Shown in pieces: positions 16,238-26,251 of a stretch of 64,000 nucleotides of DNA. The DNA is from Haloarchaeobius iranensis (lineage in GTDB: Archaea > Halobacteriota > Halobacteria > Halobacteriales > Natrialbaceae). A program made the translations under genes and the position numbers. The stretch is taken from the NCBI RefSeq assembly GCF_900103505.1, contig NZ_FNIA01000018.1, positions 1 through 64,000 on the forward strand, written 5' to 3'. The notes below the pieces were generated by a model that worked only from the letters and a program-made list of their open reading frames with translations, had not been told where the DNA came from and searched no databases. Every line of letters starts with the position of its first letter. Within the stretch, counting starts at the first letter, position 1.

Positions 16238-17539
16238 TCACACGAACAGGATGGCGAGAGCGCCGGCACCGCCGGCGACGACGAGCACCCCGCTGAGGAC
16301 GGCGACTCGACGAGCGAACTGTCGGTTCGGGCTCGCGGCGGTGAGCCCCGCCTTGACCAGCACCGACGACGCCGTCGCGAGCAGCACCGAGATGACCGTC
16401 GTCGAGGTGCTGAGGGTCCCGCCGCGGTGCAGCAGCACTGCGGAGGTGGTCGCGCCGGCGCTCGACACCAGTCCGGAGGCGGCGGCCGTCGCGATGAACC
16501 CCTCCTGGCCGAACCGGGCCTCGGCGACCGCACCGACCACGAGGACGGCGAGGAACATCGCGCCGAAGCCGAGCGCGTACCGGAGCGAGAACGGGCTCTC
16601 CAGTTCCATCTCGACGCTGTCGCGCCAGTCGGCCGACCACGCCGCGACCCCGAACGAGGCCAGCACGAGCAACACGAGCGGCACCGCCGTCGGGACCAGA
16701 ACGTCGGTCGAGACCGAGAACGCGACGACGATGAAGAGGTTCCGGAGTGCCATCGCTGCGTCCGCGAGCAGGATGGCGGCGACCGCGTACGCGACGGCGT
16801 TCTCCTGCTGGCGGACGTGGTCCATCATCGAGCCGACGACCGCCGTCGACGAGGCCAGCCCGCCGAAGAAGCCAGTGACCGCGATACCGCGGCTCCCGTA
16901 GGTCATCACGACCGCGTAGTTGACGATACCGATGGCCGCGACCGTCACGACCATCAGCCAGACGACACGCGGCTCTATCGTGATTCCCTCGACGCCCAGT
17001 GGCTCGTACGCGTAGGTCCGTTCGCCGGTCGGCAACAGCGGGTAGACCACGAACGCCAGGATTGCGAACTCGGCACCCGAGCGCACCTCCTCACGAGAGA
17101 GGTTGTCGGCGAACGAGTGCAGCTCCCGCTTCAGCACGAGCAGCATCGAGGAGAGCACTGCGACGGTGACCCCTTCGAGGACGAAGCCGACGACGACGAG
17201 CGCGCCGACCCCGTAGGTCACGAGCATCGACATCGAGGTGGTCAGCGCCAGCCCGCTCTCCCCGCCCTCCATCAGCCCGCGGACCGCCAGCAACACGCCC
17301 TGGGCGACGACGAGGACGCCACCGACGACGTGCAGCAGACCTCCCCACTGCGTCTCCATGGCCAGCAGCGTGAACACGCCGCCCGCGACCGCGATGAGGG
17401 AGAACGTCCGGACCCCGGCCGACTTCTGTGACCACTCGCGTTCGAGCCCGAGGAACATCCCGAGCGCTCCAGCGAGGATCAGCTGGATGACCGAACCGTC
17501 CAGCGAGAGGCTCGCGGAGCCCTGGAGTAGGATGTTCAC
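16238..17539 (-). CDS. MgtC/SapB-DUF4010 family membrane protein
   Basis: The 433-residue protein has about a dozen hydrophobic segments. The N-terminal 130 residues match the MgtC/SapB domain (GALGMFLGLEREW and SAGVRTFSLIAV signatures). The rest matches the DUF4010 C-terminal half (GFFGGLASSTAVVGSM and GLVSSAGATTSAVLL repeats). Such fused proteins are predicted membrane transporters or regulators, with no proven substrate. The start is GTG 17539. A TTTTTTACA element on the minus strand at 17562-17570, centred 27 bases upstream, supports it. The aminotransferase gene follows on the same strand after 61 bases but has its own promoter. Confidence 0.88.
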   Translation of the reverse strand: MNILLQGSASLSLDGSVIQLILAGALGMFLGLEREWSQKSAGVRTFSLIAVAGGVFTLLAMETQWGGLLHVVGGVLVVAQGVLLAVRGLMEGGESGLALTTSMSMLVTYGVGALVVVGFVLEGVTVAVLSSMLLVLKRELHSFADNLSREEVRSGAEFAILAFVVYPLLPTGERTYAYEPLGVEGITIEPRVVWLMVVTVAAIGIVNYAVVMTYGSRGIAVTGFFGGLASSTAVVGSMMDHVRQQENAVAYAVAAILLADAAMALRNLFIVVAFSVSTDVLVPTAVPLVLLVLASFGVAAWSADWRDSVEMELESPFSLRYALGFGAMFLAVLVVGAVAEARFGQEGFIATAAASGLVSSAGATTSAVLLHRGGTLSTSTTVISVLLATASSVLVKAGLTAASPNRQFARRVAVLSGVLVVAGGAGALAILFV

Positions 17540-18949: not shown

Positions 18950-19768
18950 TCAGTTGAGGATGGACTGTGCGACCGTCGCGAGCTGGCCGTTGTCGGCGCT
19001 CCGCAGGCGGTCGTCGCCGATCTTCAGGCGGAGGCGCGGACGACCGACGTCGATGGGGACCTTCTCGGTGTCGATGAGGCCCATGTCCTCGAGCTTCGTC
19101 TTCGTGCGGGAGAACGTCGCCTTGCTCGCGATGCCCACGTCCTCGCCCCACTTGCTGATGTCGTACAGGAGCGCCTCGTTCTTCGCGGCCACGAGCAGTG
19201 AAATCGTGACCTCGTCGAGGCCCTCACCGTCACCGCGGGCGGTCTCGAGCGAGTCGAGGATGTTCGTGAAGTCCGCCTCGGCCTCGGGGCTGATGTCGGA
19301 CTCCAGCGACTCGCGGACACGCGAAATCGGCGGGGTTCGGAGCTTGAACGCCGCTGCCTCCTCCCACGCCGCCGTGTAGGCGTCGTAGGCGGTCGAGACG
19401 AACTCGTCGTCCGCTGTCGTCAGCCCACCGACGCGGTTGCCCGCGGTGACGAGCGCGACGACGCTGTCCTCGGTGACCAGCAGCGAGTTCTCCGGGGTCT
19501 CCTCGACCGTCCGGAGCTCGAGCGAGTCGCGGTCGACGAGGTCGGCCGCGTTCGACGCCACGATGAAGTCGTCCATGACGTCCTTCAGGGTGCGTTCGTC
19601 GGCGAGCATGTGCACCGTCGGAAGCTCGCCCTCGAAGCGAGTCGCGACGCGGACGAACTCCTCGATCGCGTCGGCCGACGGGTTCACCACGAACACGTCG
19701 CCCGTGGTATCCTCCAGCACGGTCTGGAGGATATCGTCAATCTGTCTGTCGAGTAAATTCGAACTCAT
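18950..19768 (-). CDS. TbsP-like transcriptional regulator (DUF5821)
   Basis: This 272-residue protein matches, from memory, the haloarchaeal regulator TbsP described as a TrmB-linked regulator of central carbon metabolism. The N-terminal half is a conserved regulatory domain (RQIDDILQTVLEDTTGDVFV, VHMLADERTLKDVMDDF). The C-terminus is a winged-helix-like DNA-binding region (SLLVAAKNEALLYDISKWGE, IASKATFSRTKTKLEDMG, then GRPRLRLKIGDDRL). ATG 19768 gives MSSNLLDRQ; the longer form from 19783 adds only MLCIG. An A/T-rich ATTAAG element lies 30-36 bases upstream. In this window no glycolytic target gene is adjacent. Confidence 0.85.
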   Translation of the reverse strand: MSSNLLDRQIDDILQTVLEDTTGDVFVVNPSADAIEEFVRVATRFEGELPTVHMLADERTLKDVMDDFIVASNAADLVDRDSLELRTVEETPENSLLVTEDSVVALVTAGNRVGGLTTADDEFVSTAYDAYTAAWEEAAAFKLRTPPISRVRESLESDISPEAEADFTNILDSLETARGDGEGLDEVTISLLVAAKNEALLYDISKWGEDVGIASKATFSRTKTKLEDMGLIDTEKVPIDVGRPRLRLKIGDDRLRSADNGQLATVAQSILN

Positions 19769-20076
19769 GCCTATGCACAACAAAACGCCCCCGCGCTACT
19801 TAATTTTATTGGCCATCGTGGCCTCAAATCTTGGCAATCTGCTCTTGATTCCGAGCCAATGTAATCGAGAGGAAGATTGTGAGTTCCTCACGTGGGTTAT
19901 TATAACATATTTCGCCGAAATGCTTTCGTTTCAAAAATCGACGGCTGTGGCCACGGCTTCAGCTTCGAGGGCAGCTATCGTGCTTCGCTTCGCTGGCCGA
20001 ACCGACGATCGATCCGAGCGGAGCCCCGCTCCACAATCTATAAGTCGGGTCGAGAGACAGGATGTGGTACTCTCGC

Positions 20077-20157
20077 ATGCGACGTGGCATCCCCAGCTCC
20101 AACCGGCAACCCACGGTCGGACTCGACGGCGGCAGCAGCCCGTACACGGGCCCCTGA
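20077..20157 (+). CDS. Possible 26-residue microprotein
   Basis: A short frame MRRGIPSSNRQPTVGLDGGS... (26 codons from ATG 20077; 31 from ATG 20062) follows a clear TCTATAAG element at 20037-20044. The box is centred 36 bases before 20077 and 21 before 20062, so neither is an ideal leaderless start. Third positions favour G/C. No family is known to me. The rest of the 19769-20177 gap is A/T-richer up to about 19940 and holds no other gene I can support. Confidence 0.28.
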   Translation: MRRGIPSSNRQPTVGLDGGSSPYTGP

Positions 20158-20177
20158 GTTCGGTCCACTGTGCCGCG

Positions 20178-22238
20178 CTATTCGTTCGATAGCCGAGCGT
20201 AGAGGTCGTCCGACCAGCAGAACTCGCCGTCGTAGATGACCGACGTGTCCGCCCGTTCGAGGAACTCGAGCAGCGACGCCTTCGAGAGCGCGAACTCCGA
20301 CTCGTTCCCGCAGAGGTACGAGTACTCGTTGCCCTCGACGTACGGGTGGTAGTAGCTGCCGGCGTGCTGGAGGGAGAACTGGTCGAACGTGAGGAAGAAC
20401 CGGTCGTCGTCCAGCCGTTCGAGCTCGGCCGTCGTCGGGAGCCGGTTCGTCGTCTGGGTCAGCGTGTAGGTGCCGTCGCCGACCACGGCGTAGTCCTTGC
20501 CCATCATGATCCGTCGACGGGCGATGCGGAGCGCGCGCTCGAAGCTGAACCCGTGGATGAGCAGGCGAGCGAACGCCGACCCGACCTTCACGGCGTGGTC
20601 GTTGAGCACCTGCGTGAACGTGACGCCGCCGGCGACTGCACCCTTCTCGACGAGCTCCATGCCCTCGTGGAACGAGCCACAGGCGTTCAGGAAGAACGTC
20701 CGGGTGCCACACGACGAGAGGCTGCTGGCCGAGAGGTAGCCGTCGGGGCAGCGCAACCCGTCGGTCTCGCAGTGGCCGATGTAGTGGACGAAGTCGTTCT
20801 CGCCCTCGAACACCCGCGCGAGTTCTGCGGTCCCGAGGTGGTCGACGACGTTCACAGACAGCGGCAGGTCGGTCGCGTGCTCCCGGTAGATGCGGCCCAC
20901 GTCGATGTGCTCGTCGTCCATCTTCTCGTCGTTGAGCACCACGGTCACCTCGGCGCTCTCGTGCTGCCGGTCGAGCACCGACAGCCGGTTCCGGTACGCA
21001 GCGGGCGTACATTTGAACACGTCGATGGGGACGCCGTCCGCCAGCCAGCCGTGGACCCGGCCCCCGCGCAGCTCCGGCTTGACGACGTCCACCGAGGCGA
21101 CCTCGCCGGGGCCGGTCGCGCGGTAGAAGTCGTCGAGCGAGCGTTCGACCAGCTCCGAGCCCGCCAGCTCCGACGTCCGCGGCATGTAGATCGCCGCGAG
21201 GTCGTGGAGCAGGAACGGAATGGTCTCGAAGGTCTCCGGGCTCGGCTCGACGTACATCGAGAGGTGCCAGTCCGGCAGCCGGTGTTCGAGCGCGGCGTAG
21301 GGGACGTCGAGGTAGGTCTCCAGCCGGTCCACGGGCGTCCCGTGGTACAGTGCCTCGGCGTCGAGGTCGAGCGCGTCGAGCAGGCTCTCCTCGGCGAGGT
21401 TCGTCCCGTACGGCCCGGCGTTCCGGACCAGGCAGTCGAGGAAGAACGTCTTCCGGAGGAGCCGGGTCGTCCGGCGTTCGAGGTCGGGCAGCGGTCCGAG
21501 GTCGTGGCGGATGCCCGCCCCCGGCGCACAGAGCATCGGGGCCTCGATGTCGGGGACGGTCTCGACGTCGGCCTGCAGATAGTACGCCAGCGGCGCGGTG
21601 ACGTACAGCTCGTCGAACGACGGCGGCACCAGCAGCTCGATGCCGACATCGGGTGTGGCGTTCCTGATTGTCGAGGACACCTCGACGGTGTCACCCGCCT
21701 CGATGAGCGGCGGGTGGCCACGCAGCGTCGGGTAGGTGCGGTCCGGCGCGGTGGTCTTGTGCGAGGCCGGCAGGTGACTGAGCGCGACCGCCAGGCCCTT
21801 CGGCGTCGGTGGGACGGTGATACTACCCGACGGCCGGACGTTCCTGCTCCGGAACCCGAGCGTCACCTCCGTCTCGTCGGCAAAGCTGACGACGACCTCC
21901 TCGAAGTCCGGGGTCTTCGAGATCGCCAGCGGCCCCTCCGCGCGCAGGTAGGTCTTGATGTCCGTATCGAGGTCGACGATGTACTCCCCTGCCGGCAGCT
22001 CGAGGGGGCCGGTGTCGTTCTCAAGCTCGTAGGTGGCGTCGCTCGACTCCGAGGCGACGTACACCACCGAGATGGGAAAGCGGACTTCGTCGGTTCGACA
22101 GGAGAGGGTCGCATCGACCGGTCGTGGGAGGGGGACGCCATCGTCGGCCACGGAGAGGTTCGGCCCTTCGACCGTGAACTCCGAGTTCCCCGGGTCGACC
22201 ACCCGGAGACCGGTGGCCGTCACCTCCCACTCTATCAT
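20178..22238 (-). CDS. Large protein with a C-terminal CHAT-like caspase-fold protease domain
   Basis: The 686-residue protein has no signal peptide or membrane helix. Residues 1-380 are beta-rich and of unknown family (PNLSVADDGVPLPRPVDATL; GFRSRNVRPSGSITV). The C-terminal third has the CHAT/caspase-like layout. A strand ends in FVHYIGHCETDG, with H489 as the likely catalytic His, and the next core strand ends in TFFLNACGSFHEG, with C520 as the likely nucleophile. The helix GAVAGGVTFTQVLND follows. CHAT proteases are peptidases often wired into bacterial defence or cell-death modules. Here no partner (gasdermin, TPR or nucleic-acid sensor gene) is adjacent. A TAACTAATAG element 20-25 bases upstream supports ATG 22238. 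Confidence 0.75.
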   Translation of the reverse strand: MIEWEVTATGLRVVDPGNSEFTVEGPNLSVADDGVPLPRPVDATLSCRTDEVRFPISVVYVASESSDATYELENDTGPLELPAGEYIVDLDTDIKTYLRAEGPLAISKTPDFEEVVVSFADETEVTLGFRSRNVRPSGSITVPPTPKGLAVALSHLPASHKTTAPDRTYPTLRGHPPLIEAGDTVEVSSTIRNATPDVGIELLVPPSFDELYVTAPLAYYLQADVETVPDIEAPMLCAPGAGIRHDLGPLPDLERRTTRLLRKTFFLDCLVRNAGPYGTNLAEESLLDALDLDAEALYHGTPVDRLETYLDVPYAALEHRLPDWHLSMYVEPSPETFETIPFLLHDLAAIYMPRTSELAGSELVERSLDDFYRATGPGEVASVDVVKPELRGGRVHGWLADGVPIDVFKCTPAAYRNRLSVLDRQHESAEVTVVLNDEKMDDEHIDVGRIYREHATDLPLSVNVVDHLGTAELARVFEGENDFVHYIGHCETDGLRCPDGYLSASSLSSCGTRTFFLNACGSFHEGMELVEKGAVAGGVTFTQVLNDHAVKVGSAFARLLIHGFSFERALRIARRRIMMGKDYAVVGDGTYTLTQTTNRLPTTAELERLDDDRFFLTFDQFSLQHAGSYYHPYVEGNEYSYLCGNESEFALSKASLLEFLERADTSVIYDGEFCWSDDLYARLSNE

Positions 22239-22329
22239 TCGCGTTGGTAGATGTAACTAATAGCAGTTAGATGTATCGGGAGACGTACGAGAGTACATAT
22301 TCGGTGGCAGTATCGCCCGGAGACGAGTA

Positions 22330-22337
22330 CACTTATG
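22330..22337 (+). promoter_or_regulatory. TATA-like element of glyA
   Basis: CACTTATG is centred 28 bases before ATG 22362. An ATG at 22335 lies inside this element, which argues against the longer reading. Confidence 0.6.
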
Positions 22338-22361
22338 CCCGAACCGACCGGGTCTTCTCGC

Positions 22362-23609
22362 ATGGACTACGAGCACGTCCGCGAGGTCGACCCGGCGGTC
22401 GCAGACGCCCTCTCTGGCGAGGTCACACGCCAGAACGAGACGCTGGCGATGATCGCGAGCGAGAACCACGTCTCCGAGGCGGTGCTGGAGGCCCAGGGCT
22501 CGGCCCTGACGAACAAGTACGCCGAGGGTTACCCCGGCAAGCGCTACTACGGCGGCTGTCAGTACGCCGACGACGTCGAGAACCTGGCCATCGAGCGCGC
22601 GAAGGAGCTCTGGGGTGCCGAGCACGTCAACGTCCAGCCGCACTCGGGCACGCAGGCGAACCAGGCCGTCTACTTCGCGATGCTCGACCCCGGCGACAAG
22701 ATCCTCTCGATGGAGCTGAGCCACGGCGGCCACCTCAGCCACGGGCACCCCGCGAACTTCACCGGCCAGCTCTACGAGGTCGAGTCGTACGAGGTCGACC
22801 CCGAGACGGGCTACATCGACTACGAGGAGCTCCACGCGATGGCCGAGGAGTTCGAGCCCGACATCGTCGTCTCGGGCTACTCCGCGTACCCGCGCACGGT
22901 GGACTGGGAGCGCATCCAGGCGGCCGCCGACGCGGTCGACGCGCTCCACCTCGCCGACATCGCGCACATCACCGGGCTGGTCGCGGGCGGCGCACACCCC
23001 TCGCCGGTCGGTATCGCGGACTTCGTCACCGGCTCGACGCACAAGACCATCCGCGCCGGCCGCGGCGGCATCGTCATGTGCGACGAGCAGTACGCTGAGG
23101 ACATCGACAAGGCCGTCTTCCCCGGCGGGCAGGGCGGTCCGCTCATGCACAACATCGCGGGCAAGGCCGTCGGCTTCAAGGAAGCACTCGACCCCTCGTT
23201 CGAGGAGTACGCCGCACAGACGGTCCGGAACGCGAAGGCGCTCGCCGACCGGCTCCAGGAGCACGGCTTCAGCCTCGTCTCCGAGGGCACCGACAACCAC
23301 CTCGTGCTCGTCGACCTCCGGCCGTCCCACCCGGACACCACCGGCGGCGACGCCGAGGAGGCCCTGGAGGAGACCGGCATCGTGCTGAACGCGAACACCG
23401 TCCCCGGCGAGACGCGCTCGGCGTTCAATCCGTCGGGCATCCGCATCGGCACACCCGCACTCACGACGCGTGGGTTCGACGAGGAGGACCTCCGGGTCGT
23501 CGCGGACTGCATCAAGCAGGTCGTCGACGCGCCCGAGGACGAGGACGTCAAGGCCGAGGCCGAGGCGACGGTCGCGGAGCTGTGCGACGCGAACCCGCTG
23601 TACGAGTAA
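22362..23609 (+). CDS. glyA: Serine hydroxymethyltransferase
   Basis: This 415-residue PLP enzyme interconverts serine and glycine while moving a one-carbon unit to and from tetrahydrofolate or its archaeal equivalent. Conserved blocks are LAMIASENHVSEAVLEAQGS, TNKYAEGYPGKRYYGGCQ, NVQPHSGTQANQAVYFA, and the cofactor Lys in VTGSTHKTIRAGRGG. The shorter start (MDYEHVREVD) is chosen from promoter spacing and family length. The end of folD, the next enzyme in one-carbon metabolism, is at the right edge of this window, 40 kb away, so the two are not one operon. It is divergent from the CHAT-like gene. Confidence 0.95.
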   Translation: MDYEHVREVDPAVADALSGEVTRQNETLAMIASENHVSEAVLEAQGSALTNKYAEGYPGKRYYGGCQYADDVENLAIERAKELWGAEHVNVQPHSGTQANQAVYFAMLDPGDKILSMELSHGGHLSHGHPANFTGQLYEVESYEVDPETGYIDYEELHAMAEEFEPDIVVSGYSAYPRTVDWERIQAAADAVDALHLADIAHITGLVAGGAHPSPVGIADFVTGSTHKTIRAGRGGIVMCDEQYAEDIDKAVFPGGQGGPLMHNIAGKAVGFKEALDPSFEEYAAQTVRNAKALADRLQEHGFSLVSEGTDNHLVLVDLRPSHPDTTGGDAEEALEETGIVLNANTVPGETRSAFNPSGIRIGTPALTTRGFDEEDLRVVADCIKQVVDAPEDEDVKAEAEATVAELCDANPLYE

Positions 23610-25375: not shown

Positions 25376-26251
25376 ATGTACGACTCCGACGACACACCAG
25401 CGACGCGACGGCGCACAGTACTGAAAGCGGCCGGAACGACCCTCCTGCTCGGGGGGCTCGCGGGCTGTAGTGCGGACGGCGATGGAACGTCGACGCCGAC
25501 GGACACCCCGACCGATACCCAGACGGCCACGGCTGAACCGACCGCGACGGACGAACCCGAACCGAGGACAGAGAGCGGTTCGGCCGGGCAGTCGACGGCG
25601 GAGACGGTCGTCGAGGTCGGCGCGGACGGCGACTTCGTCTTCGAGCCCGGTACCGAGGAGCCCCTGTACGTCACGCCGGGGACCGAGGTGCTGTTCGGCT
25701 GGGAGTCCGGCAGCCACAGTATCGTCGTCGGCGAGACGCCAGACGGTGCGACGTGGGATGGCCACGAGACGGTCGAGGACGCCGGGTTCACGCACCGACA
25801 CACGTTCGAGACGCTCGGCGAGTACCGGTTCCACTGCGAGCCGCACCGGAGCCTCGGCATGACCGGCACCATCGTCGTCAACGAGACCGGCCGGCCGCCC
25901 GAACCCGAGACTGAACAGCCCAGCACCGAGGGACCCGTCCGCCTCGGCGACGACGGCACCGCCGAGATACTCGTCGGTGCCGACGGCGACTTCGTCTTCG
26001 AACCGGGCACCGAACGCTCGGTGAGCGTGCCCCCCGGAACGCGGGTGACGTTCGTCTGGGACTCCGACAACCACAACCTGCGGATGGACGAGACGCCGGC
26101 GGGGTCGTCGTGGACGGACCACGAGCTCGTCGAGAACGCTGGCTTCGAGTACGAGCACACGTTCGAGACGCCGGGTCGCTACGAGTTCTACTGCGAGCCA
26201 CACGAGGCCATCGGCATGACCGGCACCCTCCTCGTCGAGTCCACTGAGTAA
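25376..26251 (+). CDS. Two-domain halocyanin (blue copper lipoprotein)
   Basis: This 291-residue exported copper protein carries electrons at the cell surface. The N-terminus has a Tat motif (RRRTVLKAAG) and lipobox (GGLAGC), so it is lipid-anchored. A Thr/Asp/Pro linker leads to two plastocyanin-like domains, about residues 82-160 and 195-290. Each has a full set of type 1 copper ligands: GSHSIVV with FHCEPHRSLGM in the first, and DNHNLRM with FYCEPHEAIGM in the second. Most halocyanins have one domain; the repeat suggests internal duplication. ATG 25376 is chosen because it gives the complete Tat signal. The DUF420 gene follows 32 bases later. Confidence 0.9.
   Translation: MYDSDDTPATRRRTVLKAAGTTLLLGGLAGCSADGDGTSTPTDTPTDTQTATAEPTATDEPEPRTESGSAGQSTAETVVEVGADGDFVFEPGTEEPLYVTPGTEVLFGWESGSHSIVVGETPDGATWDGHETVEDAGFTHRHTFETLGEYRFHCEPHRSLGMTGTIVVNETGRPPEPETEQPSTEGPVRLGDDGTAEILVGADGDFVFEPGTERSVSVPPGTRVTFVWDSDNHNLRMDETPAGSSWTDHELVENAGFEYEHTFETPGRYEFYCEPHEAIGMTGTLLVESTE

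Follow-up and report, generated by a model that had tools for sequence, protein, structure and literature searches.

Gene organization and predicted structure

The window (the whole 64,000-nucleotide stretch of Haloarchaeobius iranensis DNA analysed here) carries a CHAT/separase-like gene at 20178..22238 on the minus strand, a member of clade A in the family tree described below. The reading frame is intact from ATG start to stop, codes for 686 amino acids and is coding by composition. Downstream on the same strand is a gene for a TbsP-like transcription regulator (18950..19768, minus strand; Pfam PF19138 and PF23336), and on the other side lies the divergently oriented glyA, encoding serine hydroxymethyltransferase (22362..23609, plus strand; Pfam SHMT). 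No Rfam elements were found in 19000-23000. Comparison of the CHAT/separase-like gene with six relatives (96 to 60% identity) gave dN/dS values of 0.08-0.32, indicating purifying selection. A homologue in Haloarchaeobius sp. FL176 is 96% identical.

Sequence searches with the window protein against Pfam, NCBIfam and PADLOC returned zero matches at E<1, PHROGs yielded nothing real, and PDB sequences gave nothing meaningful with the single sequence (best E 0.72) and only coiled-coil noise with the alignment profile. The Pfam CHAT model (PF12770) likewise has zero matches to the window protein at E<=1; its 24-bit cut-off is passed by two other family members, L109 (37 bits, also found by hmmscan) and L110 (24.5 bits). 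The window protein is a divergent relative and does not itself count as a Pfam member.

An AF2 model of the full-length protein, built from 83 sequences, has a pLDDT of 89.5 and a pTM of 0.90, and divides the minus-strand gene into four regions. Residues 1-142 (21813..22238) form an all-beta N-terminal domain, with pLDDT about 90 in the AF2 models, followed by a mixed alpha/beta middle region in residues 143-425 (20964..21812) with a conserved R167..R173GHPP motif; R173 and P322 are invariant in the 83-sequence alignment. Residues 426-592 (20463..20963) are predicted to form the CHAT/caspase-fold catalytic domain, which ends in a G587-D588-G589 motif, and residues 593-686 (20181..20462) form a C-terminal beta region containing the invariant W675. 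The secondary structure of the catalytic part follows the caspase-type order: beta1 (429-435), a helix, beta2 (460-466), a helix, beta3 (483-487), then beta4 (514-518), beta5 (536-540) and beta6 (583-587). The predicted catalytic histidine, H489 (20772..20774, minus strand), lies directly after beta3 in the motif FVHYIGH489CETDG, and the predicted catalytic cysteine, C520 (20679..20681, minus strand), directly after beta4 in TFFLNAC520GSFHEG; both codons were checked against the sequence. The model, the fold matches and the conservation of the dyad together place the His after beta-3 and the Cys after beta-4, the arrangement of the CHAT fold, and a conserved His-Cys dyad in a caspase-like fold is that of clan CD cysteine peptidases.

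A Foldseek search against PDB identified the protease domain of eukaryotic separase as the best match (5fby, E 2e-7; also 5fc2), along with SAVED-CHAT (8tl0), gingipain R, separase-securin and caspases. Query-normalized TM-scores are low, about 0.2, as expected if the catalytic part alone matches well. Separase shares the dyad order, but identity is 14%, a sequence-level match is absent, and the fit over a second aligned region is poor (rmsd about 18). SAVED-CHAT ranks with the top fold matches for the catalytic part (8tl0_D, 189 columns, rmsd 4.0, 17% identity); unlike it, the window protein has no SAVED domain by Pfam and was not seen in a type III CRISPR context. Gingipain R (RgpB) and the caspases share the clan CD fold and dyad, but have 8-12% identity and other accessory domains.

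The earlier note, made from the sequence alone, had proposed H489 and C520 as a caspase/CHAT dyad, to be confirmed by structure prediction, and would have given up the idea had the fold been missing or the pair unconserved. Its reading frame, coordinates and motifs are right, the predicted structure has both the fold and the His-Cys pair, and the homologues that lack the pair are separate, dead-enzyme paralogues. The long unmatched N-terminal part that it described is also borne out: a separate AF2 model of residues 1-358 (pLDDT 93) has no fold match in PDB at E<1e-3, its best hits being weak matches to glycosidases that probably arise via beta domains. The description of some 380 N-terminal residues as beta-rich holds for residues 1-142, which are all beta, but not for the mixed alpha/beta region from 143 to 425. 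We also considered the middle region as an internal pseudo-protease duplication and rejected this, as profile comparison revealed no similarity to the CHAT part.

Family distribution and loss of the dyad in one clade

The earlier note had called the gene an orphan, yet relatives are present in 365 of 391 Halobacteria genomes (E<=1e-5), many with several copies; the genome from which the window is taken has three. A phylum-wide profile search added four genomes from a different family of that phylum, each with one relative (L294-L297, in G402, G411, G420 and G429); three of these relatives have an intact dyad. Homologues on plasmids are mostly annotated as 'hypothetical protein', rarely as 'caspase family' or 'CHAT domain-containing'. 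Two such entries, WP_254546615 ('caspase family protein') and WP_253484706 ('CHAT domain-containing protein'), are full-length clade-B homologues from haloarchaeal plasmids, and we found no experiment behind either annotation. The library searched contained no papers about haloarchaeal CHAT proteins or about the DUF7504 proteins described below. Although its fold class is known, the family has a widespread architecture that is new and almost uncharacterized.

Each dyad residue is kept in 106 of 107 distinct homologues, a conservation that, in sequence comparison, lies far beyond chance. In a wider tree of 116 sequences, both are present in 104 members, and the other 12 form a single clade with support 0.999. 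We therefore distinguish three clades: A, which includes the window gene, and B, both of which keep the dyad in every member, and C, in which it is lost in 12 of 12. Clade C proteins have lost the His in 11 of 12 cases and the Cys in all 12, with the pairs DP, EP, DA, EN, HT, PF, TP and ST at the two sites, and almost always keep the nearby H485 and C497. That the residues lost together are precisely the predicted catalytic pair is what one would expect if H489 and C520 act jointly, and supports a catalytic role for them.

Clade-B copies vary in number, and some are on large plasmids, in some cases with an adjoining transposase. One locus (L202:4318-11309) has three clade-B CHAT genes in tandem, all with intact dyads, and another (L222) has three dyad-less clade-C paralogues in tandem in one genome. 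Four further dyad-less paralogues, outside the tree (L300, L301, L303 and L304), have a degenerate catalytic part and recognizable residues 1-360.

Gene neighborhoods of the three clades

To say, as the earlier note did, that no partner gene is adjacent is misleading, because the TbsP-like gene downstream and the divergent glyA are conserved across haloarchaea. Clade membership for all neighbor counts was set by locus from the tree, and the counts come from gene calls by a simple composition scorer on loci that are not a random sample. A TbsP-like gene lies within 2.5 kb on the same strand at 77 of 81 clade-A loci (median gap 380 nt), and glyA is nearby at 72 of the 81, divergently in 70. We conclude that the clade-A locus is stable, chromosomal and ancestral. 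In the window, 410 nt separate the CHAT gene from the TbsP-like gene, a spacing that does not suggest an operon, and a clearly operonic partner is absent from clade A. If clade A has a functional link to a neighbor, the TbsP-like gene is the candidate to consider first, but its presence may reflect neighborhood inertia: as the metabolic glyA is almost as conserved, the constant neighbors of clade A may only record slow rearrangement.

Clade B has a different neighbor. A DUF7504 gene occurs within 1.6 kb at 35 of 74 clade-B loci, versus 0 of 81 in clade A and 0 of 12 in clade C, against an estimated chance expectation of about 1% beside clade B (roughly five copies per genome). The B versus A comparison gives a Fisher p-value of 2e-14, which, like all such values here, overstates the evidence because related genomes are not independent. 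Of the 35 DUF7504 genes, 26 lie upstream of the clade-B gene in the same orientation, in most cases 0-100 nt from it. Near 13 clade-B loci there are HalX response regulators or proteins that cluster with these. DUF7504 (PF24336) proteins, such as that encoded at a clade-B locus in L216:3833-4549, are about 240 amino acids long and were found in 106 of 106 Halobacteria genomes searched, at 1-14 copies, and also in the H. volcanii control. They have no Walker A motif, and assignment to the KaiC/RecA-like ATPases is unsupported (3.9% probability).

Beside clade C, a histidine kinase gene is adjacent at 10 of 12 loci, compared with 3 of 74 in B and 0 of 81 in A. One such locus, with a dyad-less paralogue adjoining a kinase gene, is in the window's own genome (L188:4951-8977; G000 C28), where the kinase has GAF, PAS, HisKA and HATPase domains; there and at other clade-C loci, the two genes share a strand and are about -3 to 113 nt apart.

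The survey of homologues' neighbors that had been suggested, with nucleic-acid sensors and pore proteins in mind, thus revealed TbsP-like regulators, DUF7504 proteins, HalX response regulators and histidine kinases, and zero pore proteins or nucleic-acid sensors. Such recurrent placement beside regulators and sensors fits a signalling role better than a stand-alone death protease.

Proposed function

On balance, we read the window gene as the clade-A representative, passed on vertically, of a family of haloarchaeal cysteine endopeptidases with the CHAT/separase fold. In this reading, H489-C520 is the catalytic dyad, and the enzyme is latent and acts in signalling. The predicted fold, the dyad, the family and its clades, the synteny and the purifying selection are results of the analysis, and from there we infer the proteolysis, latency, signal and substrate. 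The closest experimental precedent is TPR-CHAT (Csx29), the protease of the type III-E CRISPR Craspase, which is inactive until non-self target RNA binds and then cuts Csx30, a protein that complexes with RpoE (PMC9729208). The two share the CHAT fold, the His-Cys dyad, a separase-like structure and an extensive N-terminal part with the potential to control protease activity. They differ in that the haloarchaeal family has a beta domain and a middle region where TPR-CHAT has TPR repeats, which we did not find, has no nearby Cas7-11-like gene and is not confined to CRISPR loci; no CRISPR-type gene occurs among the neighbors inspected.

TPR-CHAT and separase serve as the analogy for this latency: the beta domain and middle region would keep the protease switched off, and the N-terminal part may, as the earlier note suggested, sense a trigger. 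Binding of a signal or partner would release the protease to cleave a single regulatory protein or a small number of them, and the cleavage would alter gene expression or a stress state. The paralogues appear to be connected to signalling partners that differ between clades: DUF7504 and some HalX regulators for clade B, and the adjoining histidine kinase for the protease-dead clade C. The protein is most likely a latent signalling endopeptidase, and the family has the look of signalling machinery built into these archaea, not of an anti-virus gene that stands alone.

Relation to caspase-like activity

Archaeal genomes are said to lack clear caspase homologues, and yet Haloferax volcanii has a dominant, zVAD-FMK-sensitive LEVDase/IETDase activity that is linked to salt stress and whose gene is not known; caspase-like activity has also been reported in Halorubrum and Haloarcula, and similar activity in Pyrococcus and Sulfolobus (PMC3615174). 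Each of the 15 Haloferax genomes tested has a single full-length family member, with an intact dyad and a DUF7504 gene upstream. These are the genomes of genus g43, taken as Haloferax because their PCNA is 95-100% identical to PDB 3hi8 (100% in one genome), which is the PCNA of H. volcanii. Given this distribution and the strong activity without an assigned gene, the family is an obvious candidate for its source, as a housekeeping and stress protease.

We nevertheless regard this explanation as unlikely. The reports from Pyrococcus and Sulfolobus count against it, and a very high basal activity fits a latent enzyme poorly. Metacaspases, gingipain R and separase cleave after basic residues, and the acidic, near-invariant D588 of the GDG motif might favor basic P1 residues in this family too. 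P1-Asp specificity is not predicted here. In addition, the Haloferax member belongs to clade B by tree placement of the G040 copy, whereas the window gene belongs to clade A. Also unlikely is a larger scheme, an ancient protease signalling network of haloarchaea in which every CHAT/separase-like paralogue, whether active or dead, would have a regulator of its own and the single Haloferax member would be the source of the dominant H. volcanii caspase-like activity. As a near-universal haloarchaeal, clan-CD-like candidate for a dominant activity tied to salt stress, the family has the advantage of being single-copy in the tractable Haloferax.

Defense and scaffold explanations

The earlier note had pointed to the role of CHAT proteases in bacterial defense, and well-studied bacterial members do act there: TPR-CHAT with type III-E CRISPR (PMC9729208) and SAVED-CHAT (mentioned in PMC11417357). 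A defense or abortive-infection protease would sense infection and kill the cell through cleavage of a substrate such as a pore protein, and the variable copy number of clade B, with copies on large plasmids and in some cases next to a transposase, is consistent with it. The family is, however, near-universal in haloarchaea, and clade A is syntenic. No relatives were found by sequence in phage records or viral contigs, none by fold among viral proteins at E<1e-3, and none in PADLOC-DB. Among ten neighbors of the gene in the window, which are metabolic or regulatory, the sole PADLOC-DB match is a PadR regulator with a weak CARF3 hit (E 3e-4). As these searches found no relative and the gene does not lie among defense genes, the defense explanation is unsupported; we consider it distinctly unlikely, and reject it as the main reading on distribution and neighborhood.

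Very unlikely is a non-catalytic signalling scaffold, with the CHAT fold used for binding and a structural His-Cys pair, because the dyad is intact in all 104 clade-A and clade-B members and CHAT-domain dN/dS is low (0.05-0.29), even though paralogues that are dead as proteases have been retained along with a conserved kinase partner of their own, and some paralogues keep a recognizable N-terminal part beside a degenerate catalytic part.

The three clades would comprise a housekeeping form (A), a multi-copy form predicted to be active (B) and a dead form beside a kinase (C), offering an archaeal system in which to study the switching of CHAT/separase-type proteases and the origin of pseudo-enzymes.

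Two other loci in the window were recorded: 16238-17539 encodes an MgtC plus DUF4010 membrane protein, and the product of 25376-26251 has a lipobox-like N-terminus as well as two stretches of the copper-binding (plastocyanin-like) type.
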